DNA of 64,000 nt from a virus. This document shows positions 2,082 to 63,447 of the stretch, piece by piece (positions within the stretch are counted from its first letter, which is position 1; each line of letters starts with the position of its first letter). The notes under the pieces are model-generated. The model did no database searches and had not been told where the DNA came from. It saw only the letters and a program-made list of their open reading frames with translations. Both the position numbers and the translations under genes were made by a program. The stretch spans positions 1 to 64,000 of IMG/VR virus record IMGVR_UViG_3300024243_000011, one strand, 5' to 3'.

Positions 2082-5000
2082 ATGAAATATGCTTTAGTTC
2101 ACATTCACTCCAATTTTTCGACATTGGATGCACCTTCTAAGATAAAAAACATCGTCAAAAAGGCAAAAGATATTGGATGTCCTGGCGTATCAATTTCTGA
2201 TCATGGTGTTGCTGGCGGATTGTTGCAAGCATATAATGAATGTAAGTCGCAGGATATCAACTTTATTCCAGGTGTTGAATTTTATGTAAATAACAATAGA
2301 GACTTTAAAGACAAAACAAATAGAAAGAATTTTCACTTATGTTTATTTGCAAAAAACTATGAGGGTTATAAAGATTTAATTTGGTTACAAGGAGAGTCAA
2401 CATATAATTTTTATGGCAAGCCAAGGACAACAAATGAACTTATTTTACAAAAAGCAAAAAAAGGAAATCTTATATGCACAACCGCTTGTCTTGGTTCTGA
2501 ATTACATCATTATTTTAAAAACAATGAAATATGCTCAGCAAAAGAGTGGATAAAGAAGTATTACAATGTTTTTGGTGATGATCTTTACTTAGAACTACAA
2601 ATAAACGAACTTACAAAAGAACAAAAAGCTTATAATGATAAACTAATTCAGATTTCCAATAAGACAGGCATAAGTTTAACCCTGGGTTTAGACTCTCATT
2701 ATGTTGAAAAGGAAGATTGGTTTCTTCAACAGTTAACATTTCTCATTAGGGACAAAAAGACAGTAAAGAGCTTGGAAAGTAATGATGACTCTGGGGAGGA
2801 AAAGGGAAAGAAAGATGAGGCATGGCAATTTGAAACAAAAAGTCTTTGGATAAAAACACCTGAAGAAGTTATAGAGTGTAATAAGGAGTTTGGTTATAAT
2901 TATTCAATAGACTTTATTAAGAGGTTGTTTAGTTCAACTTTAGAAATCAACTCTAAGGTAGATGTTGAAATTCCTTTTTATGACTATAAGTTTCCTAAAC
3001 ACAAACATCAGGGTGACATATCTTCAAAACAATTATTGATCAACAAGGCTAAGAGTGGGTTAAAACAAAAGTTAAGTGAAGGTAAGGTTAAAGAAAAAGA
3101 CATACCTACTTATGTTGATAGAATAAAAGAAGAGATTGATGTCTTAACTAACCATGGAAGAGATTTCTCAGACTATTTTTTGTTTTTTGATGATATCAAG
3201 AACTTTGTATATGAACAAGGTGGTATGTTGGGTGCTGGTCGAGGTTCTGCTTGCGCCAGCTTGCTATTGTGGTTGCTTGATATAACGAAGCTAGATCCAA
3301 TAAAGGATGGTTTGATTTTCGAAAGGTTTATTAATAAAGCAAGGCTGGAGACAGATGCAGCAGATCTTGACATTGATATTAGTAGTGATGAGTTGCCGTT
3401 GGTCGAAGAGTGGCTAAAGAAAAGATATGGTGAACGCTCTGTTTGTTCTGTGGGCAATTACACTAAGTTCAGTATAAAAAATACAATAAAAGATGTTGCA
3501 AGGGCCTTGGCAGTTGATGATGACTTAAAAGTGATTAACAACATCACTAAAACATTAAATGATAAAAGTGAGGATGTCAATGAGGAGTGGGCATTAGCAG
3601 CAAAAAGGTTTAAAAAGAATTCTAGGGAATACAAATGGCTAGAAAAACATGAGAGAGATGTTCTTAAGTGGAGTAGCAAGTTGGTTGGCTGTATTAGAAA
3701 TGTGGGCCAACACGCTTCAGGGCTTGTTGTTGTGCCTGGAGAATTGTATGATCATGTTCCATTGTTGTATCATAAGAAAAAGACGTTGACAGCCTATGTA
3801 GAGGGCGTTGAATATCGAGAACTTCCACAAGTAGGGGTGTTAAAGTTAGATTTGCTTGGATTGTCAACAGCAGCTATTATTAACAATACAATAAAGTTGA
3901 TTAAAGAGAGACATGATGACTTTCCCTATGATCAAAAAACAATATTTGATATTGATAGAGAAGACAAGAATATTTTAGATGAGTTTGCAAAAGGGAACAC
4001 TGATAATTGTTTTCAGTTTGAGTCTGATGGCATGAAAAGCTTATTACAAAATATTTGTGTTAGTAGTTTTAGTGATGTTGTTTTGTGCAATGCATTATAT
4101 CGTCCTGGGGCTTTAGGTGCTAATATGCATAATGTGGCTGTTGAAAATAAATTTAAGGGTGATGATATTACATATGTGCATCCGAAAGTCAAAGGTATTG
4201 TAGAAAAGACCTACGGAGTTCCAGCATTTCAGGAGCAAGTTTTGTTCACATTGCAAAAAATTGGCAACTTAAGTTTAAGTGAGAGTGATTTGGCTAGAAA
4301 AACAATCAAAGCTTTAGGTAAGGCAAAGAAGAGTCCAGAAGAGTTAGAAAAGCTTAATGCATTTTTAAAAACATTTGCAAAGGGTGCAAAAGAAAATGGC
4401 CTTAATGATAAGGAGGTTAGCAAGATTTTAGAGTGGTTAAGAGCAAGCAGTGATTATTCATTCAACAAGTCACACTCAGCAGCATATTCATTAAACTCAT
4501 ATATTACGTTATGGTTAAAAAAGAATTATCCAATTGAATTCTTTACTGCTGTTTTAGCGAATGTACAATCTAACGAAGAAAAATTATATACAACTTTAAG
4601 TGAGGCAAGAAAAAATAATGTAAAAATAAATTATATCGATATTAATGAATCTGGTTGGGATTTTTTTATTGTTGATAATGAGATTTATTGTGGCTTTGGT
4701 TTTCTTAAGGGTACAAGTAAAAAAGATATTAACAAGGTGCTAGCTCTAAGGCCATTTACATCTATAAATGATTTTATACAAAAGGCATTGGAACATGGCA
4801 TATCAAAGAAAACAGTTTATCCATTGATTCAAACAGGTATTACGAGAAATATACATTCTAATGGTAGAGAATTAATAGAGATATATGAGAGAACAAAAAA
4901 GATTTGCAAAAGGAAAAGTTTTGAGTGGGATCAAATTGATGATATAATTACTGAAGTTAGCTTAGAAGATCTTAAGCCATACAACAAACAAGAACTTGTT

Positions 5001-5486
5001 GACTTTGAACTGAAGTATATTGGGTTTTATTTGCAATCAGATGTTTTGGCTATGTATGATAAATATATTCAAATGTTTGGTGCAATGCTAGTAAGTGAAA
5101 TGAATATAATGCCAAAACAAGTTTGTGTTAATAAGTATACCCAAAAAGAATCAACTGAATACAAATATCATATTTGCGGCATTATTGTTAACTCAGTGAT
5201 TAAGAAAACTAAAAAAGGAAAAGAATATAGAATTGTTGAAGTTTCAGATTATACAGGCAAGGCTAGCTCTGGGTTGTCATTTAAAATATGGGAGCCAAAG
5301 TTAATAGAAAAGTGTTATAATTCTGAAGCCAAGGATTTGCTGAGTAAGGGTTCTGTTGTTTTGGCTAAACTCTCAAAGAATGATTTTGGATATTCATTGC
5401 AAAAGTTTGATGTTAATAATATTGAAAACATGGATATATCAAAATTCCCATTTATTAACTTGAACATTTTAAGTTTGGAGGTTTAA
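2082..5486 (+). CDS. dnaE: DNA polymerase III alpha subunit (DnaE-type)
   Basis: 1134 residues; this is the replicative C-family polymerase that adds dNTPs at the phage fork. An N-terminal PHP domain shows H7-I-H-S, SDHG at 39-42 and D-S-H near 204. These metal-ligand-like residues could support a PHP exonuclease. The polymerase core has GAGRGSACASLLLWLLD (about 384-400), DLDIDIS with two catalytic Asp (about 428), LKLDLLGL with the third Asp (about 586), FQEQVLFT (about 716) and FNKSHSAAYS (about 793). A C-terminal OB-like segment begins near 1025. Bacterial DnaE is about 1160 residues, so it looks complete. No separate DnaQ exonuclease or clamp gene is in the window. C-family polymerases are uncommon in tailed phages compared with families A and B. 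Confidence 0.95.
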   Translation: MKYALVHIHSNFSTLDAPSKIKNIVKKAKDIGCPGVSISDHGVAGGLLQAYNECKSQDINFIPGVEFYVNNNRDFKDKTNRKNFHLCLFAKNYEGYKDLIWLQGESTYNFYGKPRTTNELILQKAKKGNLICTTACLGSELHHYFKNNEICSAKEWIKKYYNVFGDDLYLELQINELTKEQKAYNDKLIQISNKTGISLTLGLDSHYVEKEDWFLQQLTFLIRDKKTVKSLESNDDSGEEKGKKDEAWQFETKSLWIKTPEEVIECNKEFGYNYSIDFIKRLFSSTLEINSKVDVEIPFYDYKFPKHKHQGDISSKQLLINKAKSGLKQKLSEGKVKEKDIPTYVDRIKEEIDVLTNHGRDFSDYFLFFDDIKNFVYEQGGMLGAGRGSACASLLLWLLDITKLDPIKDGLIFERFINKARLETDAADLDIDISSDELPLVEEWLKKRYGERSVCSVGNYTKFSIKNTIKDVARALAVDDDLKVINNITKTLNDKSEDVNEEWALAAKRFKKNSREYKWLEKHERDVLKWSSKLVGCIRNVGQHASGLVVVPGELYDHVPLLYHKKKTLTAYVEGVEYRELPQVGVLKLDLLGLSTAAIINNTIKLIKERHDDFPYDQKTIFDIDREDKNILDEFAKGNTDNCFQFESDGMKSLLQNICVSSFSDVVLCNALYRPGALGANMHNVAVENKFKGDDITYVHPKVKGIVEKTYGVPAFQEQVLFTLQKIGNLSLSESDLARKTIKALGKAKKSPEELEKLNAFLKTFAKGAKENGLNDKEVSKILEWLRASSDYSFNKSHSAAYSLNSYITLWLKKNYPIEFFTAVLANVQSNEEKLYTTLSEARKNNVKINYIDINESGWDFFIVDNEIYCGFGFLKGTSKKDINKVLALRPFTSINDFIQKALEHGISKKTVYPLIQTGITRNIHSNGRELIEIYERTKKICKRKSFEWDQIDDIITEVSLEDLKPYNKQELVDFELKYIGFYLQSDVLAMYDKYIQMFGAMLVSEMNIMPKQVCVNKYTQKESTEYKYHICGIIVNSVIKKTKKGKEYRIVEVSDYTGKASSGLSFKIWEPKLIEKCYNSEAKDLLSKGSVVLAKLSKNDFGYSLQKFDVNNIENMDISKFPFINLNILSLEV

Positions 5487-24572: not shown

Positions 24573-25718
24573 GTGGCAAAGCTTAACGTAAAATCAGCAC
24601 TGAAGGTTCTTGATAATCTGCCGAAAGAGCAGGCCGTTCTCGTTGATGGCCCTCATGGTATTGGCAAGAGTACTATCTTTAGAGATCTTGCAAAGAAGAG
24701 AAATGCACATTTTATCGATATGCGGCTCTCACAGGTTGAGTATGTAGATCTGATTGGTATGCCTCAGTCTGTTAATGGAGAAATGATCTACTCGTCCCCT
24801 TGGTGGCGACGGGAGATTGAGGCATGTGCAGAGAGAGGACAGAACGTTGTTCTCCTTCTTGATGAGATTAACCGTGCTCATCGTGATGTTCTCCAGTCAG
24901 TGTTTCAGTTGATTCTGGATCGTCGTATCCAGGATTGGGCACTTCCATCCAACGTTGACGTGTGGGTGTATGGTGCAGTCAACATGGGTGATGACTATGA
25001 CGTGTCTATGATGGACCCTGCACTGTTGGATCGTTTCTATCGGTTTACCCTTGAGCCATCACCGGCAGAGTGGCTGAGGTGGTCAAAGAGCGTTGGTATC
25101 CATCGTGCAATTCACATGTTCATTGAAAAGAACCATAACTATTTGTATTTCACTGGCACGCCTGAAGAGGGCCGGATTTATCCTTCTCCTCGTTCATGGG
25201 CTATGCTTTCTAATTGTATGAATCTAAACAAAAAACTTGTTGACGATCATCATGCTCTTACTCTTCTCTCAATGGGTTTTGTTGGTGAAGAAGGGGCAAC
25301 TAGGTTTGTTGACTTTGTAAAGAAGGAGTTTAATCAAATGACAGCAAAAGACATTCTTGAAAAATGGAAGGACCGGGGGCAGGATATTACTGAACTGGTA
25401 ACTGATGATGTGGTTGAGGCTTCAACTCTCATGGATCAGTGCATTGAGTTTTTCCGTGCAAAGGGAGAGGATGGGGTTAAGCCTCGTCACATTAAGAACT
25501 TTACTGAGTATATGTTGATTGTCCCACTGGATGTGATCAACTATGCATGGCAGGCTCTCCAGGAGTACACTGAGGATGGTGGTGACGTAAAGAACATCAA
25601 CTTTGTGGCCTCAAAGCTTGGTGATGATGAGCGGATCAGGACTAGGGTGGTGGAAGCCAATAGCGAGTGGATCAGGGAAGAGCAGGAGAAAGTAAAGAAG
25701 GGTGCCGAGGGCGAATAA
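24573..25718 (+). CDS. MoxR-family AAA+ ATPase
   Basis: 381 residues from a GTG start behind AAGGAGG. MoxR ATPases use ATP to remodel partner proteins and pair with VWA-domain proteins. Walker A GPHGIGKST is at residues 26-34, Walker B VVLLLDEINRA at 92-102, sensor 1 GAVNMG near 136, and the arginine-finger segment MDPALLDRF near 148. The likely partner is the VWA metallopeptidase at 48766, which has the same promoter type. Base composition is far less AT-rich than its neighbours (29 of 60 G/C at 24901-24960). A terminator follows. Confidence 0.9.
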   Translation: MAKLNVKSALKVLDNLPKEQAVLVDGPHGIGKSTIFRDLAKKRNAHFIDMRLSQVEYVDLIGMPQSVNGEMIYSSPWWRREIEACAERGQNVVLLLDEINRAHRDVLQSVFQLILDRRIQDWALPSNVDVWVYGAVNMGDDYDVSMMDPALLDRFYRFTLEPSPAEWLRWSKSVGIHRAIHMFIEKNHNYLYFTGTPEEGRIYPSPRSWAMLSNCMNLNKKLVDDHHALTLLSMGFVGEEGATRFVDFVKKEFNQMTAKDILEKWKDRGQDITELVTDDVVEASTLMDQCIEFFRAKGEDGVKPRHIKNFTEYMLIVPLDVINYAWQALQEYTEDGGDVKNINFVASKLGDDERIRTRVVEANSEWIREEQEKVKKGAEGE

Positions 25719-38738: not shown

Positions 38739-38767
38739 TTAACAGATGTTGTTTAATATGTTATAGT
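38739..38767 (+). promoter_or_regulatory. TTAACA-type sigma70 promoter
   Basis: TTAACA 38739-38744, 17-bp spacer, TATAGT 38762-38767, then GTCTTTGTTGACAATGAAGG. It drives the CCA-adding enzyme gene. Confidence 0.85.
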
Positions 38768-38801
38768 GTCTTTGTTGACAATGAAGGAAGGGGGCTTTTT
38801 A

Positions 38802-39983
38802 ATGAAGATATATCAAGTAGGTGGTAGCATTAGAGATGAGGTTCTTGGTATAGAGGCCAAGGATTTTGATTATGTTGTAGTTGGCGCTACTGTTGCTGAG
38901 TTTAAGGATAAATATCCTGAAGCTGAGTTGGTTGGTAAATCTTTTCCTGTTTTTATTGTTGATGGTGATGAATATGCTTTTGCAAGGATTGAAAGAAAGA
39001 TTGGTGTTGGTCATTGTGGGTTTGATGTTGATTATGAACCTACTGTAACCATTGAAGAGGATTTGATGAGAAGGGATCTTACGATTAACGCAATTGCAAG
39101 AGATGTTGAAACTGGCGAAGTGGTTTATGTTGATGGTGCTTATGAAGATATTAAAAGTGGTGTTCTTCGTCATGTATCTGATGCTTTTTGTGAAGACCCT
39201 TTGAGGGTTTATAGGCTTGCAAGATTTGCTGCTAAGTTTCCTGAGTTTGTTGTTTGTGACAAAACCAAAAAGCTCTGCGAAGGCATGAAGCGTGAGCTTT
39301 CTCACCTCCCGACTGAGCGTGTTTTTGCCGAACTTTGCAAGGCGCTTAATTGCGAAATGCCGAGTAGGTTTTTTACTGTCCTTGATGAATGTGGTGTGCT
39401 CGATGTTCATTTTAGTGAGATTGTTAAAATGAAAATTATCCCCGCAGGCCCAATTGAACACCATCCAGAGGGAGATCTTTTTAGTCATACTATGCAAGTG
39501 GTTGATGGTACTGTTAAGGATAGTGTGGCTAGGTTTGGAGCTTTGGTTCATGATTTTGGTAAGCTTGTTACTGACTCTAATAATTATCCTTGCCATTACC
39601 GTCATGATAGCGAAGGTGTTTTTAGTAGTGTCGTTATGGCTTTTTGTGATAAGTTTAAGGTAGGTGTAGAATATTCTAGGATGGCAACGTTTTGTGCGAG
39701 GCATCATATGAGGGTTGGAAAGTTTTTTGAAATGAAGCCTGGGAAGCTTGTTTCTATGTTTGAGTATATGTCTAGGTTTGTTATTGATTCTGATAAGTTT
39801 TTGTCTGTTGTTAATGCTGACGGTCAGAATGTTTGTAAAAAAGCTTTTGATTGTTGCTTAAAAAGTGTTATGATGGTAAAGCTTCCGGTGGAATATCATG
39901 ATCGTGGAACTAAGTGTAAAGATATTCTTATGAATCTTAGATGTCATAAACTTAACAATTGTAGGAATTTTTATAGTAAATAA
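38802..39983 (+). CDS. cca: CCA-adding tRNA nucleotidyltransferase with HD domain
   Basis: 393 residues from ATG 38802 behind GAAGGGGGC. The enzyme builds or repairs the CCA end of tRNA. VGGSIRDEVLG (about residues 6-16), FDYVVVGAT with catalytic Asp, ARIERKIGVGHCGF and RRDLTINAIA (about 90-99) match the gammaproteobacterial type closely. The HD phosphohydrolase half has HHPEGDLFSHT (about 218) and LVHDFGK (about 247). Being this close to a bacterial enzyme suggests acquisition from a host. No tRNA gene is visible in the window, so its substrates are host tRNAs or phage tRNAs elsewhere. Confidence 0.92.
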   Translation: MKIYQVGGSIRDEVLGIEAKDFDYVVVGATVAEFKDKYPEAELVGKSFPVFIVDGDEYAFARIERKIGVGHCGFDVDYEPTVTIEEDLMRRDLTINAIARDVETGEVVYVDGAYEDIKSGVLRHVSDAFCEDPLRVYRLARFAAKFPEFVVCDKTKKLCEGMKRELSHLPTERVFAELCKALNCEMPSRFFTVLDECGVLDVHFSEIVKMKIIPAGPIEHHPEGDLFSHTMQVVDGTVKDSVARFGALVHDFGKLVTDSNNYPCHYRHDSEGVFSSVVMAFCDKFKVGVEYSRMATFCARHHMRVGKFFEMKPGKLVSMFEYMSRFVIDSDKFLSVVNADGQNVCKKAFDCCLKSVMMVKLPVEYHDRGTKCKDILMNLRCHKLNNCRNFYSK

Positions 39984-40392: not shown

Positions 40393-41490
40393 ATGAATAT
40401 GAAAAGTGTTTGTGTTGTTGAAGATGGTTTAACTTTTGATGATGTTTCAATTATTCCAAAATATTCAGATATAAAAACGAGAGCTAATGTTGACTTGTCT
40501 GTTGATTTGGGTGTTGGCATTAAACTGAATGTTCCCATTATTGCTAGTCCTATGAAAAGTGTCTGCGAAGTTGATATGGCAGTCGCTATGGCAAGGTTAG
40601 GTGGCATTGGTATTATACATAGATTTTGCACTATTGATGAACAGGTAAAAATGGTTAAGGATGCTAAGGATATTTTGTGTAGGGATAATGCTATTGGAAA
40701 TATTAATTGTTATGTTGGTGCTGCTATTGGTGTTAATGAATATGAATATAAAGAAAGAATGGCTGCTTTAGTTGATGCGGGAGTTGATTTGATTAATTTG
40801 GATGTTGCTCATGGTCATCATGTTTTATCTAAAATTGCGTTAAAATATATTAAAAATAATTTATCAAGGCCGGTTCATATTATGGGCGGTGCAGTTTGTA
40901 CTTCTGAAGCAGTTAGGGATTTAGCTAAATGGGGTGTTGATAGTGTTCGTTGTGGCATTGGCCCAGGTTCTGGATGTACTACTAGGTTGATGGCTGGTAT
41001 TGGTGTTCCTCAAGTTACAGCAATTAGCAATTGTTCATGGGCTGCTGATGAGTTTGGTATAAAAGTAATTGCTGATGGTGGTATAAGAATTCCTGGCGAT
41101 GTTTGTAAGGCAATTGCTCTTGGCTCTGATGTTTGTATGCTTGGAGGTTTGTTGGCAGCAACCATGGAATCTCCAGGTATAATTATTAAAGAGGGAATGT
41201 GGCCTAATGAGAAAAAGTATAAGACTTATTCTGGTTCAGCGTCGTATGCTGCAAAAGCTGAGCGTGGGGAATCAGATAGCAATGTTGAGGGAGCTTCTAT
41301 GAGATTACCATACAAGGGCAATGTTGATCATATTGTTAATAGTATATGTGATGGCTTAAAGAGTTCGTTATCGTATGTTGGTGTTGATAACATTAGGGCA
41401 TTTCAGATTAAGTCTACGTTTGTTAAGGTTAGTGCATCTAGTATTGTTGAAAGTAAGCCGCATGGCTTGTTTAATAGTTTTGGGGGGTAA
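40393..41490 (+). CDS. IMP dehydrogenase / GMP reductase family enzyme
   Basis: 365 residues without CBS domains. LTFDDVSIIPKYSDI (about residues 13-27), SPMKSVC (about 53-59) and the catalytic loop GIGPGSGCTTRLMAGIGVPQ with the active Cys (about 196) are clear. So are ADGGIR and LPYKGNVDHI. GIGVPQ favours IMPDH (IMP to XMP), while the KKYKTYSGSAS flap and lack of CBS domains also allow GMP reductase (GMP to IMP). Both act at the purine branch point. It directly precedes adenylosuccinate synthetase, so the two were likely kept together. Confidence 0.85.
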   Translation: MNMKSVCVVEDGLTFDDVSIIPKYSDIKTRANVDLSVDLGVGIKLNVPIIASPMKSVCEVDMAVAMARLGGIGIIHRFCTIDEQVKMVKDAKDILCRDNAIGNINCYVGAAIGVNEYEYKERMAALVDAGVDLINLDVAHGHHVLSKIALKYIKNNLSRPVHIMGGAVCTSEAVRDLAKWGVDSVRCGIGPGSGCTTRLMAGIGVPQVTAISNCSWAADEFGIKVIADGGIRIPGDVCKAIALGSDVCMLGGLLAATMESPGIIIKEGMWPNEKKYKTYSGSASYAAKAERGESDSNVEGASMRLPYKGNVDHIVNSICDGLKSSLSYVGVDNIRAFQIKSTFVKVSASSIVESKPHGLFNSFGG

Positions 41491-42576
41491 ATGCGAAATT
41501 TTAATTTTAATGACAATGGTGTTGATGGTGTTGATAGGGATATTTTAAACTTTGGCTTAAAAGAAATTTCTTCTGACGTAATTGTTGGTTTACAATATGG
41601 TGATTGTGCTAAAGGCAAAGTTACTAAATGGTTGTTAGATAAATATTTTTATGATTATTGTGTTAGGTATAATGGTGGTGATAATGCTGGCCATACTATT
41701 TATAAAAAAGGTAAGAAGTTGGTTACTCATTTTGTTCCAGCAGGTGCTTTTAGTGATTTACGAACTGTTTCGGTAATTGGTCCCAATTGTTTGCTTCATG
41801 TTAATAAGTTCTTTAAGGAACTCAAATATTTAAATGATAATGGTATTAATGTTAATAGTGATAATATTAAAATTTCTTATAATACTCACATTATTACTGA
41901 TGATAATATTCTTGAGGATGAGGAAATGGATTATATTGGTAGTACAAAAAGAGGCATTACTTTTGCGTATAGAGATCGTGTTCTTAAGAATTCTAGTAGG
42001 GCAGAAGACATACCTGAATTAGATGATTTTATTTGTGATCCTGTACAGTTGTTTAATAAGTCTGATAAGCATAGTGGTACAACACGCATATTATTTGAAG
42101 GCGCACAAGGTTTTGGCTTAGATTTATCTTTTGGTGATTATCCATATGTTACTTCCTCTAATTGTATTGCTAGTTCTGCGTTTTTAAATGGTGTTTCTCC
42201 GAAAACATTGCGTAAAGTTTATGGTTGTGCAAAAATTTATGAGACATATGTTGGAACAAAGGATTTTCATGGTGATGGTGATATTTTTAATGAGTTGCAA
42301 AAGCTAGGAAATGAATATGGCGCAACTACTGGCAGATCTAGACAATGTAATTGGTTGGATTTGGGCTTGTTAGTTCGTGCTATTATTGTCAATGGTGTTG
42401 ATGTTGTCATTTTTTCTAAAGTTGATGTAATAAAAGAGTTGAATCATTTTGAAATAAGAAACCCAAATATTAAGTTTTCTAATTATGATGATATGGAATA
42501 CTTTATTTCTGAGCGCCTTCATCGAGCTTTTCCTAATATTGAATTGATTTTTTCTGATGTTCCTCACACTGTTTAA
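41491..42576 (+). CDS. purA: Adenylosuccinate synthetase (PurA-like)
   Basis: 361 residues, shorter than the usual bacterial 430 and nearer to archaeal or viral forms. It joins IMP and Asp using GTP. VGLQYGDCAKGK (about residues 32-43) keeps the catalytic Asp of GDEGKGK. NGGDNAGHT (about 61-69) holds the catalytic His. GSTKRGITFAYRDR, FEGAQGFGLDL, YPYVTSSN and ATTGRSRQCNWLD complete the active site. Viral PurZ enzymes, which make 2-aminoadenine precursors, are reported to replace that Asp, so this argues for ordinary PurA. It starts at the base after the previous stop. Confidence 0.88.
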   Translation: MRNFNFNDNGVDGVDRDILNFGLKEISSDVIVGLQYGDCAKGKVTKWLLDKYFYDYCVRYNGGDNAGHTIYKKGKKLVTHFVPAGAFSDLRTVSVIGPNCLLHVNKFFKELKYLNDNGINVNSDNIKISYNTHIITDDNILEDEEMDYIGSTKRGITFAYRDRVLKNSSRAEDIPELDDFICDPVQLFNKSDKHSGTTRILFEGAQGFGLDLSFGDYPYVTSSNCIASSAFLNGVSPKTLRKVYGCAKIYETYVGTKDFHGDGDIFNELQKLGNEYGATTGRSRQCNWLDLGLLVRAIIVNGVDVVIFSKVDVIKELNHFEIRNPNIKFSNYDDMEYFISERLHRAFPNIELIFSDVPHTV

Positions 42577-46243: not shown

Positions 46244-46606
46244 GTGTTAATGAAAAAGCATTTAAATATTTTACTGGAAGGCATTTCTGATGTTTTTAAT
46301 AACAAAGAAGTGGAGGTGATTGATGATGAACATATTGATGCCTTAAATGAGAATATCTTTTTTGATGGTGATTTGTTTACTAAATTTTTTGATGATAACG
46401 TTGTTTTATCTTCTCTAGAAAAATGTATAATGTTGGCTTTAAAGTCTGGAGAGAGCATTCCTACTTCTTCACAAACTATGGATAAGTGTGGGTTTTATGA
46501 AGAAGTTAATTTGTATATGAATGGAGTGGGGGAGTCTGAGGCAACTATAAAAGATATTAAAGATTGTTTGTTGGCTATGATTTTAAATGGTTCTATGGAG
46601 AAGTAA
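46244..46606 (+). CDS. Uncharacterised acidic protein
   Basis: 120 residues from a GTG start 8 bases after GGAG; ATG 46250 is an in-frame alternative. It starts MLMKKHLNILLEGISDVF, with a leucine-rich helix. The body is acidic (EVEVIDDEHIDALNENIFFD). Its 3' end overlaps the ribosome site of the large fusion gene. Confidence 0.5.
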   Translation: MLMKKHLNILLEGISDVFNNKEVEVIDDEHIDALNENIFFDGDLFTKFFDDNVVLSSLEKCIMLALKSGESIPTSSQTMDKCGFYEEVNLYMNGVGESEATIKDIKDCLLAMILNGSMEK

Positions 46607-46610
46607 TGGT

Positions 46611-48674
46611 TTGTCTGACAAGAAAAAGAAGGTAATCCAGGAAATTAGTTTAGTGCCGAATGTAGATCGTCCTGCAATTGAATTTTCTTCTTATCGTGGT
46701 GCTAGCTCTTCTGATTGTCTTGTTGGTAGTGGTAGTTATTATGATTTCAATGGCCTCCCTTATGAAGAATATGATTTATATGACATTTGTTTAAGTGAAG
46801 AAGGGGGTGTTGTTGACAAACCTAACGTTGGTGTTGTTGGGTATTTCATTGGTGGTTTCCGGCCCCCTCACTTAGCTCATTTTAATCATATTATTGAAGC
46901 AGCTAGCAAGTGTGACAAGCTGTTTGTCGTTTCTTCTACTAAATCTAAAAGAACATGTTTTTCTAATTTGTATAACAAAGAGTTGATTTTTGATTTTGAT
47001 ATCACTGAGCACATTTTTAATGTATTTAAAGGGTACGTTAACAGTGGCGTGGTTAAATTTATTTATGTTGATGAAAGTCCCTTTAAGTATGTTTGGGATT
47101 CTATTGACGGTTATTTAAATAATGGTTTTGATTTTAAGGAGGTTAAATTGTTTGTTGGAAGTAAAGATTCAGGTAGGTTTGATTATTTTATTAATAACTT
47201 TGGTGATAAATATGGTTGTGATTGTATTAATGTAGAACAATTCGAGTCTCCAGCCTTTCCAAACTCTACTGATGTTCGGCAGGCTATATGTGATGGGGAT
47301 ATAAAGAAATTTTACATGTCAATGCCACAAGTAGTTAAGTATGGTAAGGTTAGAGATATAATTGGACATATATATGATCATAATGGTATTGATGTTAATG
47401 GTATTAATGAGGTTAATAAAAGAGATTTTTTAGGTGGCAGGCTGCTGTTGTGTGGAGGTCTGGGTGGTCATATAATGCACCCATATGAGAATGTTAATTT
47501 AAAGTTCTCAGATTTGGCTGACTTAGTTGATGACTTTAAGTTTGGCAAAATTGATAATGTGGTTGAGAAGACAGATGGTGTAAATATTTTTGTATCTTGG
47601 GATGACGATAGAAATGTTGTGGTATTTGCTAGAAATGTTGGAGAAGTTGTTCGAGGGGGGTTAACAAAAGACGAATTGTGTGGTAAGTTTGCTGGTAGGG
47701 GAAGTTTGTATGATTTGTTTAAGCATTCTTCTGATGTCATAAGTGATGTGTTTGTTAGGGTTGGCAATGATATTAAAGAGGTGCTAAGTGATAACAAGTG
47801 GGTGAGCGTTGAAATTATTTATAACGATCACAACAATGTAATAAGATATGGTAAGAATTATATTGTTTTTCATAATGTTGTGAGTTTTGATAATGATAAA
47901 AGGGAGTTTATTGGTTGTAATGAGTATCTTTGTAACGACAATTTGTTTGATAGGTTAAATGTGGTTGTAAAAAAATCACAAAAGTTGTGGAATGTTATGT
48001 CAGATGTAAAACATAATATTGACAATGTTAGTTTTGACGATGGATTTATTGGCGAGGTTAAGGGTATGATTAAATCGATTACTAATAGTTCTGAAAATTT
48101 AAGTAATGATAGTACTATTTCTGATTATTTGTATGATAAGTTTTATAAGGCTCTAGGTAAGTTGTTTGATAAATATGATTTAAATGATGATAGCTTAGTT
48201 GATTTACTTGCTAAGAGAATGGCATTTAATGACAAAAAGGCAATAACTATTAATCAACTTAAAAAGAAGATTAGTGATGTTGATTTGTTTAATGAGCTTA
48301 AGGTGTTCTTGTCTGACCCTAATACTAGTAAACTGAAGAATCAATACTTAAGGCCATTAATGGTGATATTTATAAAATTTGGTATACATGTTTTACAGCA
48401 GATAGAGTCTGGTTTGCTTAACAATAAGGATGATGAGGCTAAGCGTTTGGCTAAGCTTATTGATAATGAAATTAACTCTATATTATCTTCTAATGATGAT
48501 GATAAGGTTAGTAGGTTAAATAGGGCGCTTGAATTATTATCAGATAGCGGCAGTGATGATATTGATCTTTCTAGTGTTATTGAGGGCATTGTGTTTAATT
48601 GGAAAGGTAGTGTGTATAAATTAACTGGAATTTTTTCACAACTTAATAAAATTTTGTGGCTCAATAAAAAATAA
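46611..48674 (+). CDS. Nucleotidylyltransferase-ligase fusion protein
   Basis: 687 residues from TTG 46611 (ATG 46587 is an alternative without a ribosome site). The N-terminal half is a HIGH-superfamily nucleotidylyltransferase: GYFIGGFRPPHLAHF (about residues 76-90) holds the ATP-binding His pair, and SPAFPNSTDVRQAI resembles the closing S/T-x-x-R signature. The second half is ligase-like: HIMHPYENVNLKF, then EKTDGVNIFVS with the candidate adenylated Lys (about 320), ARNVGEVVRGG, VSVEIIY, and EGIVFNW...YKLTG (about 657-670) for motifs IV-V. I recall this arrangement from T4-like cyanophage proteins of unknown role. It may make or seal a modified nucleotide or RNA end. Confidence 0.75.
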   Translation: MSDKKKKVIQEISLVPNVDRPAIEFSSYRGASSSDCLVGSGSYYDFNGLPYEEYDLYDICLSEEGGVVDKPNVGVVGYFIGGFRPPHLAHFNHIIEAASKCDKLFVVSSTKSKRTCFSNLYNKELIFDFDITEHIFNVFKGYVNSGVVKFIYVDESPFKYVWDSIDGYLNNGFDFKEVKLFVGSKDSGRFDYFINNFGDKYGCDCINVEQFESPAFPNSTDVRQAICDGDIKKFYMSMPQVVKYGKVRDIIGHIYDHNGIDVNGINEVNKRDFLGGRLLLCGGLGGHIMHPYENVNLKFSDLADLVDDFKFGKIDNVVEKTDGVNIFVSWDDDRNVVVFARNVGEVVRGGLTKDELCGKFAGRGSLYDLFKHSSDVISDVFVRVGNDIKEVLSDNKWVSVEIIYNDHNNVIRYGKNYIVFHNVVSFDNDKREFIGCNEYLCNDNLFDRLNVVVKKSQKLWNVMSDVKHNIDNVSFDDGFIGEVKGMIKSITNSSENLSNDSTISDYLYDKFYKALGKLFDKYDLNDDSLVDLLAKRMAFNDKKAITINQLKKKISDVDLFNELKVFLSDPNTSKLKNQYLRPLMVIFIKFGIHVLQQIESGLLNNKDDEAKRLAKLIDNEINSILSSNDDDKVSRLNRALELLSDSGSDDIDLSSVIEGIVFNWKGSVYKLTGIFSQLNKILWLNKK

Positions 48675-48687
48675 TTTTCAAAAGTGG

Positions 48688-48716
48688 TTAACAAATGGGT
48701 GCCAATGTGGTACAGT
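48688..48716 (+). promoter_or_regulatory. TTAACA-type sigma70 promoter
   Basis: TTAACA 48688-48693, 17-bp spacer ending AATGTGG, TACAGT 48711-48716. It is the only TTAACA-type promoter right of 39 kb. It drives the VWA metallopeptidase gene, partner of the MoxR gene that carries the same promoter. Confidence 0.8.
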
Positions 48717-48765
48717 GTGTCTGCGTCTTGATGATTTTCACATTTTGACTGGAATGGAGGGTTTG

Positions 48766-50310
48766 ATGAAGGTTTATGATTTTAAAAATCTTGACGAGAA
48801 TGACAAGCCAAAAGAGATTGATGTTCCTTATAGGGATTTGATGGATAAGCTTGAGCTTACTATCTCAACTCTTTTGTCTAGGAATGCTCTTTATGGTGAT
48901 GTTTTTATTCGTTTGGATCGAAGGTTGCAGAATTTTATGCCACCTACTGCTGCTGTTGCTCCTCGCAATGACAAATGCTATGATATTATTGATGGTGATA
49001 ATGGCAAGAATCGTAAGTTTAAACTTCGCAAGAATAAAAGTGGCAAGGTCAGTGACATCTCTCTTATTTTTGCTCCCCAAATGCTCCATGATAATGATAT
49101 TAATCAGTTGGTTGAGATCTTGTCTCATGAGGCAATGCATATTTTGTTGAGACATATTGAACGTTCTGATTTTATTTTTTCTGATTCTGACAATGATTCT
49201 AGTTCTGGTGGAGGCAACTTCATTCGGCGGAAGTGGAATCTTGCATGTGACTGCGTTGTCAACAGTTATCTAAATAAGGATCTCCTTGATAGCTGTATGG
49301 TAATGGGTAAAAATTTGGATGGAATTTTTCCTGAAAAATTTAAGCTTGAATCTAAGCAGTCCGCTGAATATTACTATGCTAATCTTAAGGATGATGATGT
49401 CGGCGTTTGTAAAAGTTGTGATGGTACTGGAATCGTAAAAAATGGTGATGGTAATCAGTCTTCCCCAGGCGACGGCTCTGATTCTGCTGATAGTGATGGC
49501 GATGGTAATCCAGGTGGCAGCGGCACATCAGGGGATAAGGAGTCTGATAACGACAGTAATGGCTCAGGCGGCAGTATTGATGTTGGTGATGGATATGAGC
49601 TTTGTCCTGACTGTTGTGGCTCTGGCCATTCTGGTGTTGACTCTCACGATTTTTGGGAGCAGATTTCACAAGATCCCGTTTTGAAAGAAAAGATTGCTAG
49701 GGCTGCTCAGTCGGCACTTCGTAATGCTGGAAATAAGGTAGCTGGCTCTATGCCTGGAGATCTTTATGCTGCGATCATTAAGGCTAATGAAACAAAGGTA
49801 GACTGGCGATCTGCTCTTCGTTTCTTTATAAAGAAGAATATTTTTATGGGTAGAAACTTTACTCGAAAGCGCCCTGATCGTCGCCTTGGTTATGTGAACC
49901 CTGGTAAGAAGCGTGAGTATGAGACTGACCTTGTTTTGGCAATTGATACAAGCGGGAGTATTTCAGATGTCGATTTGTCTCAGTTCTTGGCAGAAATGAA
50001 CGACATTGTTGATCGTGTTGCAGAACTTACAGTTGTGGAGTTTGATTCAAGAGTTACTAAGGTTACTGAGAAGGTTAAAAAGGTTAGGAATACATGGAGC
50101 TTTTCCGGTCGGGGCGGCACATGTTTTCAGCCAGTGATCGAACTACTCCAGGACCGCCGTTCAGATGCTTGTATTTTCCTTACAGACCTTTATCCTTGTG
50201 ATGATGTGCATAAGCCTAAGAATAGTTGTCAGATTATGTGGTGTGGCACTGCTGATGCATCTAAGGACTTTAACCCTGGCTTTGGCAAGACTATTTATAT
50301 GGAGGATTGA
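48766..50310 (+). CDS. VWA-domain metallopeptidase (DUF2201 type), MoxR partner
   Basis: 514 residues from ATG 48766 behind GGAGGG. The N-terminal half is a putative metallopeptidase with SHEAMHILLRH (HEAMH at 121-125). A disordered Asp/Gly/Ser-rich insert carries two DnaJ-type zinc motifs, CKSCDGTG (about 215) and CPDCCGSG (about 280). The C-terminal VWA domain has DTSGSIS (D394-S400), the metal site for partner binding, and GRGGTCFQP later. Proteins of this type work with MoxR AAA+ ATPases. G/C content is high (35 of 60 at 50101-50160). Confidence 0.88.
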   Translation: MKVYDFKNLDENDKPKEIDVPYRDLMDKLELTISTLLSRNALYGDVFIRLDRRLQNFMPPTAAVAPRNDKCYDIIDGDNGKNRKFKLRKNKSGKVSDISLIFAPQMLHDNDINQLVEILSHEAMHILLRHIERSDFIFSDSDNDSSSGGGNFIRRKWNLACDCVVNSYLNKDLLDSCMVMGKNLDGIFPEKFKLESKQSAEYYYANLKDDDVGVCKSCDGTGIVKNGDGNQSSPGDGSDSADSDGDGNPGGSGTSGDKESDNDSNGSGGSIDVGDGYELCPDCCGSGHSGVDSHDFWEQISQDPVLKEKIARAAQSALRNAGNKVAGSMPGDLYAAIIKANETKVDWRSALRFFIKKNIFMGRNFTRKRPDRRLGYVNPGKKREYETDLVLAIDTSGSISDVDLSQFLAEMNDIVDRVAELTVVEFDSRVTKVTEKVKKVRNTWSFSGRGGTCFQPVIELLQDRRSDACIFLTDLYPCDDVHKPKNSCQIMWCGTADASKDFNPGFGKTIYMED

Positions 50311-61001: not shown

Positions 61002-61745
61002 ATGGATAACTTTAATTTTGTCATAATAACACCTTGTTATAATGCATCTTCAAATTTATATAATATATACAATAGTTTATTAGAACAGACTTATGATAAG
61101 TGGATCTGGATCATTTCAGATGATTTGTCAACTGATGATACATGCGAGGTGGCTAAAAATATTGTTAATGATGATAAATCTTTGGGTAGGGTTGTATTTT
61201 TATCTAATGGTAGTGATAAGAAATATGCCCTTAAAAATATAGTTGATGTTATCAACGGTTCTTGTTTTAGCAATATTGGTTCTGAAGTAATTATTGGTAT
61301 TATAGATGGCGATGACCAACTGTGTAATAAAAATGCCTTACAGTTGATTCTTGATGAGTATAGTAATGGTAATGATGTCGTTTGGACAGCGCATATGTGG
61401 GATGTTAATAACAATATGAATGTTTCAGGTGATATGCCAAATAATATTAACCCATATTTATATCAATGGTGTTCTTCTCATTTTAGAACGTTTAGGAAAA
61501 GTATTTTTGATAAGATTTCCCATGATAATTTTAAGGACATTAATGGTAATTGGTTTAAACGTGGTTATGATCAAGCGTTAATGTTGCCAATATTAAAGCT
61601 ATCTAAAAAGAGAAAGTATGTTAATGAAGTTTGTTATCTTTATAATATAAACTCTGTGTCAATTGATCGTAATATGGACACCACATCAGATCAATTAAAT
61701 GTTGTTAGGTTTGTTAGGGCTAGGGGTTTTAAAGAAAGTTGTTAG
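61002..61745 (+). CDS. GT2-family glycosyltransferase
   Basis: 247 residues starting 2 bases after the previous stop. VIITPCYNASSNLYNIYNSL (about residues 7-26), IISDDLSTDDTCEVA (about 38-52) and GIIDGDDQLCNKNAL (about 101-115, D-x-D metal motif) are standard GT2 elements. An acceptor-loop with FRTFRKSIFD follows. The product is unknown; it probably works in sequence with the two-domain enzyme. Confidence 0.85.
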   Translation: MDNFNFVIITPCYNASSNLYNIYNSLLEQTYDKWIWIISDDLSTDDTCEVAKNIVNDDKSLGRVVFLSNGSDKKYALKNIVDVINGSCFSNIGSEVIIGIIDGDDQLCNKNALQLILDEYSNGNDVVWTAHMWDVNNNMNVSGDMPNNINPYLYQWCSSHFRTFRKSIFDKISHDNFKDINGNWFKRGYDQALMLPILKLSKKRKYVNEVCYLYNINSVSIDRNMDTTSDQLNVVRFVRARGFKESC

Positions 61746-61800
61746 ATGTTTTGTATTGGTTGTGTTTTTTAAAGTAAGTTTATTTTGGAGGGTAATAATA

Positions 61801-63447
61801 ATGAAAATTGTATCTTTTTGGTCTGGTCATGATTGTTCGTTTTGTGTTTTGGAAAATGGAATGCCTAAGCTTCATGTTGAATATGAAAGATATATTAGAG
61901 AAAAGGAGCCTAAAGGTGATTCCATAAAGTTATTTTTTGATATTTGTGGCGAAGATGAACTAGAGGATGTTACTGATGTTGCTGTTTGTCATCCAATAAA
62001 AGATGTTTTCGATTACGCAGAATCTTGGAAAAAATTATATAAAATTTGTGAAAAAAAGGGAATTAAAGTACATGTGCTTGGCCATCATTTTTCACATGCA
62101 GCACATGCGTTTTATTCTAGTAAATATGATGACTCATTGATATTGGTTGCCGATGGTGGTGGTGTCGAATTTGAAGATAAAAATGAAAGAATCGAAACTG
62201 CAACGTGTACATATGTTGGAAATGGCAAGAGCATTAAAGCTGTAGATGTGTTTTCTATGCAAAGTATAAATATTGGTGGTTTATGGACAAGGGCCACAAG
62301 GTATATTTTTAAGCTACAGTCTGGTTGGCCACATGGCCATCAGGCAGGCACTGTAATGGCCATGTCATCGTTTGGTGACTCAAGTAAATATTACAATGAT
62401 TTTTACAGGATGTTGACTAAAGATATTGCAATGGCGTCAATAAAGCCAATGAGTCAGCCTGTTGGTGCGTATACTGGAAATGATCCAATCCATCCTTATT
62501 TGGATAAATGGGCTAAGATAGGTGAAAAAAGTGAGCAAGAACGTTTTGATTTGGCTGCTGGATTACAATCTGCCACTGAAACAGTGTTAAAAGATATGAT
62601 AGCTAAATTATCTAATGATAACCCAAATATTAGAAATCTTTGTTTGTGTGGTGGTGTTGCTTTAAATTCTGTAGCAATGGGTAAGATTGTTGATTGGGAA
62701 GACAATAATATAGAGGCTGTTTATATACCTCCTTGTCCTCATGATGGTGGGTTGTCGATTGGTGCTGCACAATATGTTTGGCATAGTTATTGTGGGAATG
62801 ATAGGATTGAGTGGAGTGACAATGTTTCTCCATATCTTGGTGAACTTTATGATGAGGAAGGTGTGAGAGGTTCTATTGAGCAATATAGGGACAGATTAAA
62901 AGTTTTGGATTGTGATGATAGATTAGTTATTGATTTTTTAGATAATCAAAAAATTGTTTCTGTGTTTAGGGGTGGATCTGAATCTGGCCGTAGAGCATTG
63001 GGAAATAGAAGTATTCTTGCAGATCCTAGAAGTGATAAAATGAAAAGTATGATTAATGAAAAAGTTAAGCATCGACAATGGTTTAGACCATTTGCACCAT
63101 CAATATTGAGAGAACATGTATCTGATTGGTTTGTTAAGGATGTTGATAGCCCGTACATGTCTTTTGTTGTAAAAATTAGAAAGAATAAGCTAAGCATGAT
63201 CCCAGCAGTTGCACATTATGATGAAACTGCTAGGTTACAAACTGTAACAAAGAATGATAATGTTTGGTATTACAATTTTTTATCGAAATGGAATGAGAAA
63301 ACTAATGTTCCAATATTGTTAAACACAAGCTTTAATGATCGTGAACCAATTTGTGAAACTCCAGTTCATGCAATTAATTGTTTTCTTAGGACTGATATTG
63401 ATTATCTTTATTTTGCAGATTTTGGAATTGTTCTTTCAAAAAAATAA
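61801..63447 (+). CDS. NodU/CmcH-type carbamoyltransferase
   Basis: 548 residues from ATG 61801 behind GGAGGG. It should transfer a carbamoyl group from carbamoyl phosphate (through an adenylate) to a hydroxyl. LGHHFSHAAHAF (about residues 93-104) gives the metal-binding His residues; VADGGG, GWPHGHQAGTVMAMSSFG, LCGGVALNSVAM (about 280-291) and GSESGRRALGNRSILADPRS complete the family. In its place behind two glycosyltransferases, it could carbamoylate a sugar or a modified base. Confidence 0.9.
   Translation: MKIVSFWSGHDCSFCVLENGMPKLHVEYERYIREKEPKGDSIKLFFDICGEDELEDVTDVAVCHPIKDVFDYAESWKKLYKICEKKGIKVHVLGHHFSHAAHAFYSSKYDDSLILVADGGGVEFEDKNERIETATCTYVGNGKSIKAVDVFSMQSINIGGLWTRATRYIFKLQSGWPHGHQAGTVMAMSSFGDSSKYYNDFYRMLTKDIAMASIKPMSQPVGAYTGNDPIHPYLDKWAKIGEKSEQERFDLAAGLQSATETVLKDMIAKLSNDNPNIRNLCLCGGVALNSVAMGKIVDWEDNNIEAVYIPPCPHDGGLSIGAAQYVWHSYCGNDRIEWSDNVSPYLGELYDEEGVRGSIEQYRDRLKVLDCDDRLVIDFLDNQKIVSVFRGGSESGRRALGNRSILADPRSDKMKSMINEKVKHRQWFRPFAPSILREHVSDWFVKDVDSPYMSFVVKIRKNKLSMIPAVAHYDETARLQTVTKNDNVWYYNFLSKWNEKTNVPILLNTSFNDREPICETPVHAINCFLRTDIDYLYFADFGIVLSKK

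Follow-up and report, generated by a model that had tools for sequence, protein, structure and literature searches.

One gene in the window (the whole 64,000-nucleotide stretch of phage DNA analysed here) encodes a fusion of two enzyme domains, an N-terminal nucleotidyltransferase (NT) of the HIGH type and a C-terminal domain modeled with the fold of an RNA ligase. Both domains, their intact motifs, the ligase fold, a long helical insert within it, and a conserved and repeatedly evolved pairing of the two are results of the computations reported here. The reading we favor, with a probability of roughly 45%, is that the C-terminal domain forms lysyl-AMP on a single lysine (K320 or K328, depending on the start codon) and acts on RNA ends, with an NMN adenylyltransferase (NMNAT)-like domain as its partner. 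Neither the fold nor either enzyme class is new; in the family libraries and literature searched, we found no description of this insert-bearing domain family, of how abundant it is in uncultured phages, or of its recurrent fusion to NMNAT-like domains.

The reading frame can begin at either of two codons. The ATG at 46587 lies in a 20-base overlap with the upstream reading frame and has no visible Shine-Dalgarno sequence, and the TTG at 46611 is the more likely start on sequence grounds, since GGAG at 46598 precedes it. Residue numbers follow the 695-aa ATG form, in which the motif I lysine is K328; in the 687-aa TTG form it is K320, exactly the number given in a first-pass annotation made from the sequence alone, and all of the motifs quoted there were found in the translated frame. 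The features are as follows, all on the plus strand.

46587..48674, +: NT-ligase fusion, whole gene; 695 aa from ATG 46587, reading frame intact
46611, +: alternative start TTG; 687 aa, with a GGAG Shine-Dalgarno-like stretch at 46598-46601
46821..47384, +: HIGH-type nucleotidyltransferase (putative adenylyltransferase) domain, aa 79-266
46851-46883, +: NT motif GGFRPPHLAHF (aa 89-99), within the NT domain
47262-47279, +: NT motif NSTDVR (STxxR kept), within the NT domain
47454..48671, +: C-terminal covalent nucleotidyltransferase of predicted RNA-ligase fold, aa 290-695
47454..47480, +: signature GGLGGHIMH, aa 290-298; H298 invariant, H295 in 105 of 106 relatives
47565..47579, +: motif I EKTDG (aa 327-331), with candidate adenylated lysine K328 (K320 from TTG)
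47625..47636, +: FARN with invariant R349, about 20 residues past motif I, as in RNA and DNA ligases
47802..47873, +: motif III VSVEIIY (E409) and motif IIIa YIVFH (H429)
47937..48545, +: all-helical insert in the AlphaFold2 model, aa ~451-653, between motifs IIIa and IV
48582..48629, +: motif IV EGIVF (aa 666-670; E666) and motif V YKLTG (aa 677-681; K678)

As judged from sequence comparison, these motifs are not due to chance, because tblastn returns significant matches and the key residues are invariant across 106 relatives.

The ligase-fold domain

No Pfam or PHROG family was found for the C-terminal domain of about 405 aa. In an alignment of 106 relatives, made 80% non-redundant (nr80), the invariant residues are H298, E327, K328, D330, G331, R349, E409, E666, G667, K678 and F683, and with H298 and F683 set aside these are motifs I, (R), III, IV and V of the covalent nucleotidyltransferases. 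Motifs I (KxDG), III, IV and V of that superfamily are thus present in order, with their catalytic residues invariant. An AlphaFold2 model of the domain, made with 19 sequences (mean pLDDT 85, pTM 0.82), was compared with the PDB by Foldseek; T4 RNA ligase 1 (Rnl1) with ATP was the top match (E 7.8e-4, probability 0.97), every one of ranks 1-29 was an RNA or DNA ligase, and a BFVD search with the same model had annotated viral RNA ligases among its matches. TM-scores were low (0.2-0.25), with the core alone matching, and likely stem from the helical insert of about 200 residues. The first-pass annotation had called this part ligase-like and named a model lacking the ligase fold as grounds for dropping the idea; the model has that fold, it matches RNA ligases, and all of the motifs with the candidate lysine are invariant. 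Going by the model, the domain very probably is a ligase fold with an intact active site.

The insert spans model residues 169-371 (about 200 aa); in known ligases the stretch from motif IIIa to motif IV is a few tens of residues long. The C-terminal OB domain with motif VI that characterises ATP-dependent DNA ligases and mRNA capping enzymes is lacking: the model shows no OB domain, and the chain ends 17 residues past the motif V lysine. The nucleotidyltransferase core (by Foldseek), the order I-(R)-III-IIIa-IV-V and the lack of an OB domain are shared with T4 Rnl1 and other RNA ligases of the superfamily, but the window protein differs from T4 Rnl1 in carrying the insert of about 200 aa between IIIa and IV, in having no C-terminal helical domain past motif V, in a GGxxGHxxH element ahead of motif I, in its fused NT, and in giving no significant sequence match. 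Among the 19 members, Pfam RNA_ligase (PF09414) matched 3 weakly (best E 0.005) and the window protein not at all, and DNA_ligase_A_M matched one (E 0.14). A profile of the domain found only chance matches among PDB sequences, mostly to the insert, and no sequence profile ties the domain significantly to any solved ligase.

A domain of this fold could also move AMP to a protein or small molecule, with the helical insert as acceptor site. Such an enzyme would suit the lack of a recognisable OB or nucleic-acid-binding domain, the unusual insert, and the varied genes that the module adjoins; the nearest folds, however, are all polynucleotide ligases, and the OB domain is often missing in RNA ligases too, and we regard a non-ligase as improbable. 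The NAD-type RNA cap that the first-pass annotation thought conceivable gains no support here; an RNA-capping enzyme as first choice was rejected for the missing OB domain and for nearest folds that are RNA ligases.

The nucleotidyltransferase and its repeated pairing

The N-terminal domain of the window protein is matched by PHROG 3462 (nicotinamide-nucleotide adenylyltransferase, E 2.9e-6), and in Pfam by CTP_transf_like only, below the curated cut-off. An HMM of the relatives' NT domains scores it at E 2e-35, with the window row itself among the seeds; the PHROG 3462 match is independent of that circularity. When a profile of 26 NT domains (the window protein and relatives) was searched against the PDB, NMNATs came first, with MJ0541 at E 1.4e-12 and an NMNAT/Nudix protein at 2.4e-9, followed by phosphopantetheine adenylyltransferase (PPAT) at 2.8e-8. 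Features of the NMN adenylyltransferases NadM and NadR (PHROG 3462; PDB 1f9a, 2qjt, 1lw7) are accordingly found in the GxFxPxHxGH-type motif, in the STxxR motif (here NSTDVR) and in the best profile matches, but the window protein reads HLAH for the HxGH that most of its relatives keep, and its partner is a ligase-fold domain instead of a Nudix domain or P-loop kinase. The PHROG match and the PDB profile search thereby bear out the earlier proposal of a nucleotidylyltransferase domain and place it with the HIGH-type, NMN-adenylyltransferase kind. The public label "cytidylyltransferase" on relatives is doubtful, because the NT profile best matches NMN adenylyltransferases; the domain probably transfers adenylyl rather than cytidylyl to a phosphate compound, a specificity that we infer from sequence.

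Relatives were gathered by the ligase domain alone, so that the NT partner was not selected for. Among 54 divergent members (less than 60% identical, full domain), the NT is in the same protein in 40 and elsewhere in the fetched locus in a further 10. Fusion occurs in both orders, the NT standing before the ligase domain in 22 and after it in 18 members of a 56-member set, and LR756500 encodes NT and ligase domain as two adjacent genes. Mapped onto the ligase tree, the "NT before" label requires 5 changes, at least 3 of them forced by starred branches. The nearest ligase kin of the window protein are stand-alone or "NT after" members, and its fusion therefore seems to have arisen apart from the main "NT before" group. 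The NT tree in turn shows NT lineages swapped between fusion orders; both are quick trees, with the window rows on long branches. Taken at the level of sequence, these results indicate that the pairing arose independently more than once and drew on different NT lineages. Since the same pair was re-created repeatedly, the two activities are probably used together, and the NT and ligase-fold steps are probably linked. A P-loop kinase is also present in 6 of the 96 complete nr80 members, with Pfam and PHROG matches to AAA_33, zeta toxin and polynucleotide kinase (PNK), an addition like that in kinase-ligase RNA repair enzymes. Five phage contigs (L013, L020, L022, L041 and L072) carry giant single proteins of 1200-1760 aa, and the three scanned (L013, L022 and L072) join P-loop kinase, NT and ligase-fold domain, with other, unassigned regions between.

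Uncultured phages often carry this family, and sequenced isolates almost never do. A tblastn search of the C-terminal part against 50,697 phage records gave three relatives (E 2e-28, 9e-21 and 7e-19), two in unannotated metagenomic phage genomes (462 and 484 kb) and one in Microcystis phage Mel-JY01, and the same three were confirmed with other family members as queries. IMG/VR scans with ligase-domain alignments yielded at least 573-595 matching stretches per scan. A related-locus search with the full protein alone found nothing and one with the ligase-domain alignment as query succeeded; no relatives were found on plasmids. The Mel-JY01 "cytidylyltransferase like protein" (WWT39297.1) is likewise an NT and ligase-fold fusion, and Mel-JY01 is the only isolated phage found carrying one. 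It differs from the window protein in being only about 25% identical, in its GRFQP-type NT and in an LxE/GG sequence (the slash marking the junction) between the domains; its gene lies about 2.6 kb upstream of the large terminase.

Some relatives are filed under bacteria. In a WOR-3 "chromosome" (CP070664.1; locus L094, 7338-11670), a ligase-NT fusion lies between two N runs of a bacterial MAG, flanked by BirA/CobO/CoaBC- and S41-peptidase-like genes (named by eye); a phage contig has probably been joined to the bin of a bacterium during scaffolding. Two contigs of 410 and 400 kb (L088 and L089), filed as Firmicutes and Erysipelotrichaceae MAGs, have the family adjoining or fused with an NT and may in fact be huge phage genomes placed in bacterial bins by mistake.

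How the two domains may act together

In the favored reading, the N-terminal domain, as a NadM/NadR-like adenylyltransferase of the HIGH superfamily, would transfer AMP from ATP to a phosphate compound p-X to give A-pp-X, which is NAD+ if p-X is NMN. The C-terminal domain, as an ATP-type enzyme of RNA-ligase fold, would form lysine-AMP on K320/K328 and then activate and join RNA ends. What we infer of the RNA substrate, of a repair role and of the coupling of the two reactions is that the likeliest substrate would be RNA ends, of tRNA or other RNA, produced when the host cleaves these molecules during infection, that the helical insert of about 200 aa may replace the C-terminal helical domain on which the tRNA specificity of T4 RNA ligase 1 depends, and that the NT probably keeps NAD+ up during RNA repair or makes or recycles a dinucleotide used by the ligase domain. 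Favoring action on RNA ends, the same phage encodes a tRNA nucleotidyltransferase of CCA-adding type. Against it stand the low TM-scores, the lack of a significant ligase profile link, the kinase in only 6 of 96 members, the HLAH variant and the sub-threshold Pfam match of the NT. No consistent RNA-repair gene neighbourhood was found, a PHROG census of 137 flanking proteins showing no shared context beyond NT genes. The 76-kb record, which is possibly a fragment, lacks NadV (PF04095), a Pfam RNA ligase (PF09414) and an ATP DNA ligase (PF01068).

The pairing might instead reflect joint delivery, in which a "polyvalent" protein would carry two domains that work independently of each other against host defence after injection: the NT would replenish NAD+ and the ligase would mend RNA, with the prohead protease freeing both at LxE. 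T4-type head proteases cut after glutamate in such LxE motifs (PMC5694885). Leaders resembling capsid-targeting sequences (an aromatic-containing helix ending in LxE) are found in 27 of 78 N-extended relatives, compared with 15 of the 513 remaining ORFs at those loci and 3% of shuffled sequences. Of the 105 nr80 members scored, 78 have an LxE/GG site directly ahead of the ligase domain; its glutamate is replaced by M, C or S in 16 members, however, and the element could therefore be structural. The virion proteome of cyanophage S-CREM2 includes an NT homolog, which would suit delivery, although the authors allow for co-purification (PMC10665884). Polyvalent injected phage proteins are a known theme, and in the part of that account considered here they share with this family the joining of unlike enzyme domains in one polypeptide, as in the giant multi-domain fusions among the relatives; an NT-ligase pairing is not described in that part, and the partners here are specific, not mixed (PMC5512222). 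The window protein itself has no leader and reads LLLC/GG at the junction, and the head protease of its phage is ClpP-like. Packaging of the window protein into the capsid in the manner of a T4 capsid-targeting sequence (CTS) was rejected, as it has no N-terminal leader ending in LxE. Overall, we consider joint delivery unlikely.

A closer chemical coupling, in which the NT makes an A-pp-X such as NAD+ and the ligase-fold domain uses it, is suggested over joint delivery by the specific and re-created pairing, in both orders and with different NT lineages, which would fit a substrate-product link. The compound could serve as AMP donor for an NAD+-dependent RNA ligase, with the released NMN recycled by the protein's own NMNAT, or as a pre-activated donor from which p-X is joined to RNA 3' ends as a tag. 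In classical work T4 Rnl1 was found to accept A(5')pp(5')X compounds as donors, and this precedent, with the closest resemblance of the NT being to NMNAT, speaks for the scheme. Against it, the NMN-binding Ia domain of LigA was not recognised (there is no Pfam match, and only about 38 domain residues precede motif I), ATP alone is enough for a ligase, and an enzyme that did no more than transfer p-X from a pre-activated donor would have no need of the invariant motif I lysine. Such coupling seems to us a somewhat long shot.

T4-like cyanophages, which are among the most abundant ocean viruses, offer a parallel to the pairing. In S-PM2 and other Kyanoviridae a DUF6267 gene (PF19782, T4-GC 71) immediately precedes an NT gene (T4-GC 190), and across T4-like cyanophages a "cytidyltransferase" of the same NT family comes directly after DUF6267 or is fused to it. 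In S-PM2 the DUF6267 region is split in two (locus L248, 3025-4801; AJ630128, 103025-104801), between S-PM2p138 and the start of p139. S-PM2p139 combines the C-terminal half, which bears the EGFV and K motifs, with the NT in a single polypeptide. The first-pass annotation had mentioned similar cyanophage proteins, and this was right in kind, the counterpart being DUF6267 beside or fused to an NT. DUF6267 is about 400 aa long and has H-x-x-H-x-x-D, KWDG, EGFV and K motifs in the same order as the window domain, with a helical stretch ahead of motif IV in its model. Pfam finds no DUF6267 in the window protein. Alignment of the two by hhalign (5 against 19 and 54 against 106 sequences) gave P 0.018-0.048, the value of 0.018 falling at motifs IV-V, and Foldseek of a DUF6267 AlphaFold2 model against the PDB gave nothing significant. 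That DUF6267 belongs to the same family as the window domain is plausible but unproven; the pair is a parallel, and DUF6267 possibly a distant relative. A separate candidate, SSM2_160 beside the S-SM2 NT gene, was dropped as DUF6267 because the alignment does not fit.

Extended to these phages, the coupled scheme would describe a self-contained machine widespread in uncultured phages, with DUF6267 plus cytidyltransferase as a second form, in which A-pp-X (NAD+-like) from one domain is used by the other, either in RNA ligation with p-X re-adenylated on the spot or in tagging RNA ends with p-X. We would give this broader proposal slightly longer odds again. The specific, repeatedly evolved pairing suggests that phage infection connects cofactor chemistry with nucleic-acid ends in a way not yet recognised, and a shared function could cover a large set of unannotated genes, including the analogous pair that in T4-like cyanophages stands under the labels DUF6267 and "cytidyltransferase".

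Other genes in the window

The CCA-adding or poly(A) polymerase head-domain tRNA nucleotidyltransferase of this phage lies at 38766-39983 (phrog_2244, E 2e-97), and ARAGORN found no tRNA gene within the window. A DnaE-type polymerase of the same phage is at 2082-5486. At 40393-42576 an IMP dehydrogenase/GMP reductase-like gene stands directly ahead of a PurZ/adenylosuccinate-synthetase-like gene (phrog_1211, E 5e-66; PF00709, E 2e-76), and 2-aminoadenine (Z) DNA chemistry or purine supply are possible roles for the two. Directly downstream of the fusion gene, 48715-50310 encodes a DUF2201 putative metallopeptidase and VWA-like protein, which likely forms an AAA+/VWA pair with the MoxR-like AAA+ ATPase encoded at 24573-25718. 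Finally, a NodU/Nol-like carbamoyltransferase gene at 61699-63447 (phrog_1601, E 2e-107) lies beside glycosyltransferase-like genes, suggesting surface-sugar or nucleotide modification.
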